From NCBI RefSeq assembly GCF_004375085.3, contig NZ_SNAQ03000015.1, forward strand, positions 62,001-126,000: DNA of 64,000 nucleotides, given 5' to 3'. Positions 22,986 to 26,293 of this stretch are shown here, one piece after another. Within the stretch, counting starts at the first letter, position 1. Each line of letters opens with the position of its first letter. The notes under the pieces are model-generated. The model was not told the origin of the DNA, did not search any database, and was given only the letters and a program-made list of their open reading frames with translations. The position numbers and the translations under genes were made by a program. The stretch is from Lewinella sp. W8. Its GTDB lineage: Bacteria; Bacteroidota; Bacteroidia; Chitinophagales; Saprospiraceae.

Positions 22986-23146
22986 CGTTGAGGATTATTT
23001 TCTTAGTGTTTAAAAATGTTGGGCGAGCCAGGAAAAGCTGCTGGGCGACGGTCCCGAGTTACCTGAGGCTCGTCGGGATCACCGATTCAAAGAGAATGCG
23101 GCGAAGCGCAGGTGCAGACTTCTTCGGAATGGCCGTGCCCCATAAT

Positions 23147-26093: not shown

Positions 26094-26132
26094 TTAAAAA
26101 GCAAGTGGCCCCGGAGTTACTCGGGACCACTT
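26094..26132 (-). terminator. Attenuator terminator before pheA
   Basis: On the minus strand, the arms AAGTGGTCCCG and CGGGGCCACTT pair (one mismatch) and are followed by GCTTTTTAA. It lies between the leader peptide and pheA, about 28 bases before the pheA ATG, so read-through is needed for operon expression. Its 5' arm, AGTGGTCCC, can instead pair with GGGAC(GCT)CACT at 26157-26168, immediately after the leader stop codon. That is the mutually exclusive anti-terminator expected of classical attenuation. Confidence 0.8.
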
Positions 26133-26156
26133 TTATTCGTTAGCAATTTACCAATG

Positions 26157-26168
26157 AGTGAGCGTCCC
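26157..26168 (-). promoter_or_regulatory. Anti-terminator arm of the pheA leader
   Basis: GGGACGCTCACT, read on the minus strand, starts at the base after the leader TAA. GGGAC and CACT pair with GTCCC and AGTG of the terminator 5' arm (nine pairs, three-base bulge). A ribosome finishing at the stop codon would cover this arm and allow termination; one stalled upstream at Phe/Tyr codons would leave it free. Confidence 0.7.
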
Positions 26169-26225
26169 TTACCGTCGGCGGTAAAAGTAAAAGTCAGCCC
26201 AGAAGTAAAAATTGCGGTTAATCAT
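26169..26225 (-). CDS. Aromatic leader peptide of the pheA operon
   Basis: An 18-residue frame from ATG 26225: MINRNFYFWADFYFYRRR. Four Phe, three Tyr and one Trp make eight of 18 residues aromatic, with the Phe/Tyr codons in two clusters. It is preceded by a full-consensus promoter and followed by overlapping anti-terminator and terminator arms before pheA. The frame is also open further upstream, but the promoter position makes this ATG the sensible start. I infer a translation-coupled sensor of charged Phe-tRNA and Tyr-tRNA. Confidence 0.82.
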   Translation of the reverse strand: MINRNFYFWADFYFYRRR

Positions 26226-26261
26226 TGTTTTACGTTGCGCAACCAAAGCTGCGTTCACCAG

Positions 26262-26293
26262 CAAACCTACGGCGATAGTTTCACTTAGCAAAA
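26262..26293 (-). promoter_or_regulatory. Promoter of the pheA leader
   Basis: Minus-strand TTTTG (26289-26293) and TAGGTTTG (26262-26269), spaced by 19 bases, match the Bacteroidota -33/-7 pattern (TTTG, TAnnTTTG). Transcription would start near 26255, giving a leader RNA of about 190 bases before pheA. Confidence 0.65.

Follow-up and report, generated by a model that had tools for sequence, protein, structure and literature searches.

The region ahead of pheA on the minus strand of the 64,000-nt stretch of Lewinella sp. W8 DNA analysed here (hereafter the window, numbered from its first base) is very probably a ribosome-mediated transcription attenuator of the classical leader-peptide kind that controls a Phe/Tyr operon. 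Its elements, the mutual exclusivity of its folds and their conservation are present in the sequence itself. A first-pass annotation of this DNA had proposed the same reading, and the relatives that we compared keep both the leader frame and the hairpins.

On the minus strand, the leader ORF is preceded by a Bacteroidota-type promoter (26293-26262) with the -33 element TTTTG (26293-26289), a spacer of 19 nt and the -7 element TAGGTTTG (26269-26262); CATTTTG is also found in the aligned upstream regions L013-L021. Because the sigmaA consensus TAnnTTTG of Flavobacterium psychrophilum is reported at -12 to -5 (PMC9723704), the transcription start is predicted at about 26257, roughly 32 nt 5' of the leader ATG. 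The leader ORF MINRNFYFWADFYFYRRR runs from the ATG at 26225 to the TAA at 26169 (stop included) and encodes 18 residues, eight of which are aromatic (F6, Y7, F8, W9, F12, Y13, F14 and Y15). The sequence GGGACGCTCACT begins at 26168, the base directly 3' of the TAA. Further downstream lies the terminator hairpin, in which the 5' arm AAGTGGTCCCG (26132-26122) and the 3' arm CGGGGCCACTT (26113-26103) enclose a loop of 8 nt; GCTTTTT follows directly after the 3' arm, and the hairpin ends 36 nt 5' of the pheA ATG (26066). Reading the sequence placed the promoter, the 18-residue leader with its eight aromatic residues, the GGGAC element after the stop and the terminator where the first-pass annotation had put them. 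Upstream of the attenuator, a 271-aa protein is encoded on the same strand (27193-26378) and has no NCBIfam match.

The gene behind the terminator, pheA (26066-25203, minus strand), encodes a prephenate dehydratase of 287 aa that matches NF008866 (E 4.5e-60) and NF008865 (E 5.5e-59), both below their curated cut-offs. It is followed on the minus strand by a PLP-dependent aminotransferase (25200-24022; best match NF006756, below cut-off), a prephenate dehydrogenase of the tyrA type (23989-23147; NF006307, above cut-off) and a DAHP synthase/chorismate mutase fusion (22985-21900; family matches below cut-offs). An aminotransferase match occurs somewhere in 97 of 117 pheA loci, our own included, and a tyrA-type match in 43 of the 117, most of which hold just 1500 nt behind pheA. 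A four-gene Phe/Tyr/DAHPS operon is plausible, with the membership of the fourth gene uncertain because a gap of 161 nt (22986-23146) separates tyrA from the DAHP synthase fusion. A minus-strand scan of this gap for promoters and terminators found none, by a method that does not cover Bacteroidota promoters, and inspection by eye revealed no TAnnTTTG there. The gap holds a short ORF, MGHGHSEEVCTCASPHSL, just 3' of the tyrA stop, and the hairpin-like sequence GATCCCGA...TCGGGACC.

Folding of the minus-strand RNA identified all four segments of an attenuator, with the alternative pairings 1:2, 2:3 and 3:4. Segment 1, CUUUUACCG (26187-26179), carries the last Phe/Tyr codons and pairs with CGGUAAGGG (26174-26166), the 3' arm of the 1:2 hairpin, so linking these codons with the stop codon and with bases 1-3 of segment 2; this hairpin was absent from the first-pass annotation and was added by our folding analysis. 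Segment 2, the antiterminator 5' arm GGGACGCU (26168-26161), was delimited by folding and genus comparison. Segment 3 is the terminator 5' arm AAGUGGUCCCG (26132-26122), of which AGUGGUCCC (26131-26123) is common to terminator and antiterminator, and segment 4 comprises the terminator 3' arm CGGGGCCACUU and the GCUUUUU tract (26113-26096). With a folding energy of -20.2 kcal/mol (z -3.8), the terminator segment has a stability matched by 0 of 200 shuffles, and the fold of the whole leader RNA (26252-26103) likewise has a z of -3.8, with 0 of 200 shuffles as stable.

Between segment 2 and a point just beyond segment 3, the best fold pairs GGGACGCU with AGU(G)GUCCC. The earlier claim that the arm after the stop codon pairs with the terminator 5' arm, making the two folds mutually exclusive, stood, but the CACT arm that had been proposed is not conserved in the genus; on the basis of the genus alignment and folding we replaced it by GGGACGCU:AGY(G)GUCCC and close variants. 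The 2:3 pairing of the window is not significant by itself (shuffle p 0.065), and 19% of the region-2 stretches taken from other units out-pair the window's own segment 2 on its terminator arm; its support thus comes from conservation in relatives. Over 100 units, the shuffle p of the 2:3 pairing is at most 0.05 in 81, and arms pair with their own terminators at -13.5 kcal/mol as opposed to -8.9 kcal/mol for swapped arms, a mean gain of 4.6 kcal/mol.

From this arrangement we infer leader translation, ribosome stalling, the efficiency of termination and a response to starvation. RNA polymerase would start near 26257, and a ribosome would load on the leader without a Shine-Dalgarno (SD) sequence. 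When charged tRNA-Phe and tRNA-Tyr are plentiful, this ribosome would reach the stop codon and cover segment 2, allowing the 3:4 terminator to form and transcription to end before pheA. When either charged tRNA is short, it would stall in the FYFY run and cover segment 1, leaving segment 2 free just past its leading edge; 2:3 would then form, 3:4 would be blocked, and transcription would run on into pheA and the genes that follow. With no ribosome on the leader, 1:2 would form and transcription would terminate. Were the ribosome to stall earlier, at codons 6-9 of the first aromatic cluster, the core of 1:2 should stay intact and termination be favoured, and therefore the eight codons cannot all act alike.

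To assess conservation, we used 20 assessable pheA loci of the genus, our own included, for which, as for the source organism, we adopt the name Neolewinella as probably the appropriate one; L003, cut at a contig edge, was left out. All 20 keep an F/Y-rich leader and a terminator, that of our own locus being counted by the strict hairpin rule. The 1:2, 2:3 and 3:4 folds, computed piece by piece, are present in 19 of 19 genus sequences (L020 was left out), and the antiterminator is kept as GGGACGCU with AGU(G)GUCCC or a close variant. The alignment of the upstream regions thus showed the leader frame, in its aromatic codons, and the hairpins to be maintained among relatives. In L006 the 1:2 helix is changed on both sides by a compensatory A-U to G-C exchange, in which UGC replaces the Tyr codon UAC and CAA replaces the stop UAA; the compensation costs the stop codon, and the reading frame is longer. 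In several species, the AGC Ser codon that separates the two aromatic clusters is a further pairing partner for the GCU of segment 2, perhaps the reason why the aromatic run is interrupted there. One of the promoter motifs TAGGTTTG, TACGTTTG or TAGCTTTG lies within 80 nt 5' of the leader ATG in 19 of the 20 loci, L022 being the exception. For nine of these relatives (L013-L021) the -7 element is just 7-10 nt before the leader ATG used, and a 5' UTR may be all but absent from their leader mRNA.

A leader ORF could also act on translation, by changing access to the pheA start codon or by coupling through reinitiation, and upstream leader ORFs have indeed been linked to reinitiation as well (PMC4833913). 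We consider this very unlikely here: a U tract follows the hairpin, whose end is 36 nt from the pheA ATG, the conserved pairing involves the terminator arm, and the leader and pheA starts are 159 nt apart.

For a wider view of the proposed attenuator we compiled 117 pheA loci, made up of the best 80 of at least 592 confirmed by PheA similarity and 37 from relatives; a few of the records are titled Chlorobi or Lentisphaerae. Requiring at least 150 nt of upstream sequence left 112 (the short loci L003, L032, L056, L095 and L116 were dropped), of which 97 have an F/Y-rich leader; a leader followed by a terminator was found in 72 by a strict hairpin rule and in 90 by a fold-based rule. We removed L092, in which a long ORF gave a false leader, the duplicates L039 (=L020) and L042 (=L025), overlapping-frame calls in L045 and L046 and a terminator-less ORF in L109, and added the terminators of L002 and L063 by hand from the strict rule, since the tail pattern had overlooked GCTTTTT. 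Among 110 distinct loci, 94 have the leader and 90 both leader and terminator; 16 lack such a leader by the rules used, and four more lack the terminator. Control regions upstream of other biosynthetic genes, from our own genome and relatives, rarely contain an F/Y leader with terminator: 1 of 18 for hisG, 1 of 26 for ilvD and 0 of 20 for trpE, together 2 of 64 as against 72 of 112 for pheA, under nearly the same strict rule and with a window of 700 nt instead of the 600 nt used for pheA (the short control loci L122, L131, L192 and L197 were dropped).

Since these pheA loci had been chosen by similarity, we added an even draw across the phylum of 118 genomes, 102 of which have a prephenate dehydratase, and took one locus from each (the L326 locus spans only 251 nt, and for G088 the first of two matches was used). 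The script found a unit in 22 of 102, or 23 with our own locus, whose terminator it missed. The units are present in 21 of 25 genomes of the window's class, which we take to be Bacteroidia in GTDB, and in 2 of 77 genomes of other classes. The trait thus appears to be largely confined to this class, and a phylum-wide distribution, our first reading of the 110 loci, was abandoned given the bias of that sample and the 2 of 77 outside the class.

The constant quantity in these units is the distance between codons and arm. In 100 non-redundant units the median distance from the last aromatic codon to the start of the antiterminator arm is 12 nt (sd 2.8), and 98 of them fall within 6-17 nt, compared with 24% in shuffles; the value for the window is 11 nt. 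The search covered only the sequence from the last aromatic codon up to the terminator and so is partly conditioned on the architecture, the shuffles being equally restricted. A position 12 nt past a codon is just beyond the leading edge of a ribosome waiting there, as known from toeprint geometry. Judged from sequence, the constant distance from last aromatic codon to arm is a ribosome-edge ruler. By contrast, the position of the stop codon relative to the arm is variable (sd 12.4), and 50 of 100 units have an arm whose first base falls within the leader frame, over 2 nt 5' of the stop codon. The idea that a ribosome at the stop codon hides the arm, put forward in the first-pass annotation, fits our model of the window; as a general rule we rejected it because the arm is inside the frame in half of the units, the fixed quantity being the distance from the last aromatic codon to the arm. 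The stop codon is at least 15 nt clear of the terminator in 99 of 100 units, whereas shuffled sequence fails this in 40%.

These comparisons bear on two further explanations, both still less probable than an action on translation. One holds that the terminator is a constitutive intergenic or partial one next to an aromatic ORF that arose by chance. Terminator-like patterns are common, with four between 25500 and 26800 against 1.7 in shuffles, but the F/Y leader is found in all 20 genus loci and in 94 of 110 overall as opposed to 2 of 64 control regions, and the ruler between codons and arm also counts against it. The other takes the leader to be a riboswitch or the target of an RNA-binding repressor, to which the peptide would be incidental; for F. 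psychrophilum, 64 structured 5' regions with a probable regulatory role have been listed (PMC9723704), yet at gathering score no Rfam family matches the window and 20 varied loci returned one tRNA only, and what is constant is the placement of aromatic codons at ribosome-edge distance from the arm rather than a conserved RNA core.

Returning to leader-peptide attenuation, we addressed which amino acids are sensed. The residues of 100 leaders comprise 24.9% F (521), 16.9% Y (354) and 1.4% W, and the W site of the window is occupied by Y or E in some sister species of the genus alignment. The single Trp had raised the question of a third sensed signal. With W this rare, its site varying between W, Y and E, and a separate trp leader in the genome, we found no ground for it; a triple sensor of Phe, Tyr and Trp was rejected, Trp codons being neither enriched in the 100 leaders nor conserved in the genus alignment. 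The likely signals are therefore Phe and Tyr, in keeping with an operon that contains pheA, aminotransferase, tyrA and DAHP synthase/chorismate mutase. A scan of our own genome with the pattern TTYTAYTTYTAY gave 14 matches, several in short aromatic frames, versus 25 for the reversed control; among these 14 places with FYFY codons, only the pheA leader combines a start codon with six or more aromatics in 10 codons and a terminator no more than 200 nt away.

The same genome contains several enteric-like amino-acid leaders, as observed here in one member of the Bacteroidota. The trpE leader MTNKNWWWLQRTFRVT (L193) contains WWW, and the ilvD leader MSQLLVIVVLIVLVVGEPINSRKAA (L157) is rich in Ile, Leu and Val; each is followed by a terminator by the strict rule. 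The hisG leader MTNFLHHHHAAMSCPVGER (L137) is His-rich, and no terminator was found after it by the strict rule. Upstream of thrA in our own genome and five relatives (L207-L212), no Thr/Ile leader was found by the rule used, unlike in enterics.

The weakness of SD initiation that the first-pass annotation had assumed was borne out for the pheA leaders. An SD-like motif occurs in 3 of 100 leaders versus 6.4 in shuffles, and A is enriched at -14 to -10, -6 and -3 of the leader starts. This is the non-SD, A-rich start context measured in Flavobacterium johnsoniae, and Flavobacteria and Bacteroidota are reported to initiate translation generally without SD pairing (PMC6847099). Ribosome-mediated attenuation requires a first ribosome close behind RNA polymerase. 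In the papers found on runaway transcription and attenuation in Bacteroidota, titles and abstract openings do not address how tightly transcription and translation are coupled there.

Two leader-plus-terminator units lie in series in 15 of the 110 distinct pheA loci (L023, L024, L027, L040, L041, L043, L045, L059, L072, L073, L076, L079, L088, L105 and L106), none of which is of the genus; the window and each of the 20 genus loci have one unit only. Four of these have a weak point, namely L059 (second arm p 0.4), unit 2 of L106 (the stop touches the terminator), and unit 2 of L073 and unit 1 of L088 (terminator by the strict hairpin rule only). In the even draw, double units occur in 3 of 102 loci (L307, L317 and L322), the first unit of L307 being doubtful. 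Of the 15 tandem loci, 13 have a -7 motif in the 80 nt ahead of the first unit and one has such a motif ahead of the second, and therefore the second unit is probably reached only through read-through of the first. The tail of the second leader after its last aromatic codon is longer than that of the first in 12 of 15 loci. Tandem attenuators of Salmonella mgtCBR, which have been called a singular example, likewise place two successive leader ORFs on a single leader RNA but answer different signals, ATP and proline, whereas both units of the pairs described here carry Phe/Tyr codons (PMC3641672). Among the papers found on tandem attenuators with leader peptides, none concerns an amino-acid biosynthetic operon by title and abstract opening, though subscription papers may hold more.

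In enterobacteria, the Phe-rich leader peptide pheL precedes pheA together with competing antiterminator and terminator, and the trp attenuator of E. coli and the his attenuator of Salmonella follow the four-segment logic of 1:2, 2:3 and 3:4 pairing. The element described here resembles pheL in its Phe-rich leader and in the competing antiterminator and terminator ahead of pheA, but differs in its interleaving of Phe and Tyr codons, the absence of SD motifs from the leaders, the place of the stop codon within the 1:2 helix, and the presence of tyrA and DAHP synthase/chorismate mutase among the genes downstream. With the trp and his attenuators it shares the four-segment logic, in another phylum and with other signal amino acids, and segment 2 starts inside the translated leader in half of the units. 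The Bacteroid-trp motif (RF01692) also acts as an attenuator, of trp and not phe, and an Rfam scan found no match to it in the window or at the trpE locus of the same genome (L193). This motif is listed for Bacteroidetes with a name that points to trp genes, and the same source lists, in a row without an Rfam number, a candidate RNA motif for Actinobacteria that is named for pheA (PMC2864571). Attenuation of pheA in E. coli and S. typhimurium has been named, and control codons and release at the stop codon have been discussed (PMC1183508).

Within the phylum, the view that such a case is little described was only partly upheld. The F. psychrophilum transcriptome study reports clues to leader-peptide attenuation and a conserved 5' element upstream of pheA, shared with other genera of the Flavobacteriaceae, that has no Rfam match (PMC9723704), and short ORFs reminiscent of attenuation leaders have been noted in Bacteroides thetaiotaomicron (PMC7366714). 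The Flavobacteriaceae elements upstream of pheA and hisG thus share with ours the phylum, the pheA gene, the clues to a leader peptide and the lack of an Rfam match; they were reported within one family (PMC9723704), whereas we see the trait over much of the class.

The kind of switch is known from enterics; of interest here are its extent across a class, the quantitative rulers it follows, the doubled versions found in some relatives and what all this suggests about coupling where translation is initiated without SD pairing. We are evenly divided on a broader reading, in which the element of the window would belong to an old, class-wide family of Phe/Tyr attenuators with no Rfam match so far, operated by non-SD ribosomes. 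The ruler and the repeated doubling, with a second unit usually lacking a promoter motif, would then imply a leading ribosome that stays close behind RNA polymerase, and doubled units that act as two multiplied Phe/Tyr gates, giving sharper or deeper repression. The doubled units of relatives are natural tests of such serial gating, and the phe, his, ilv and trp leaders of a single genome would be native reporters for transcription-translation coupling.
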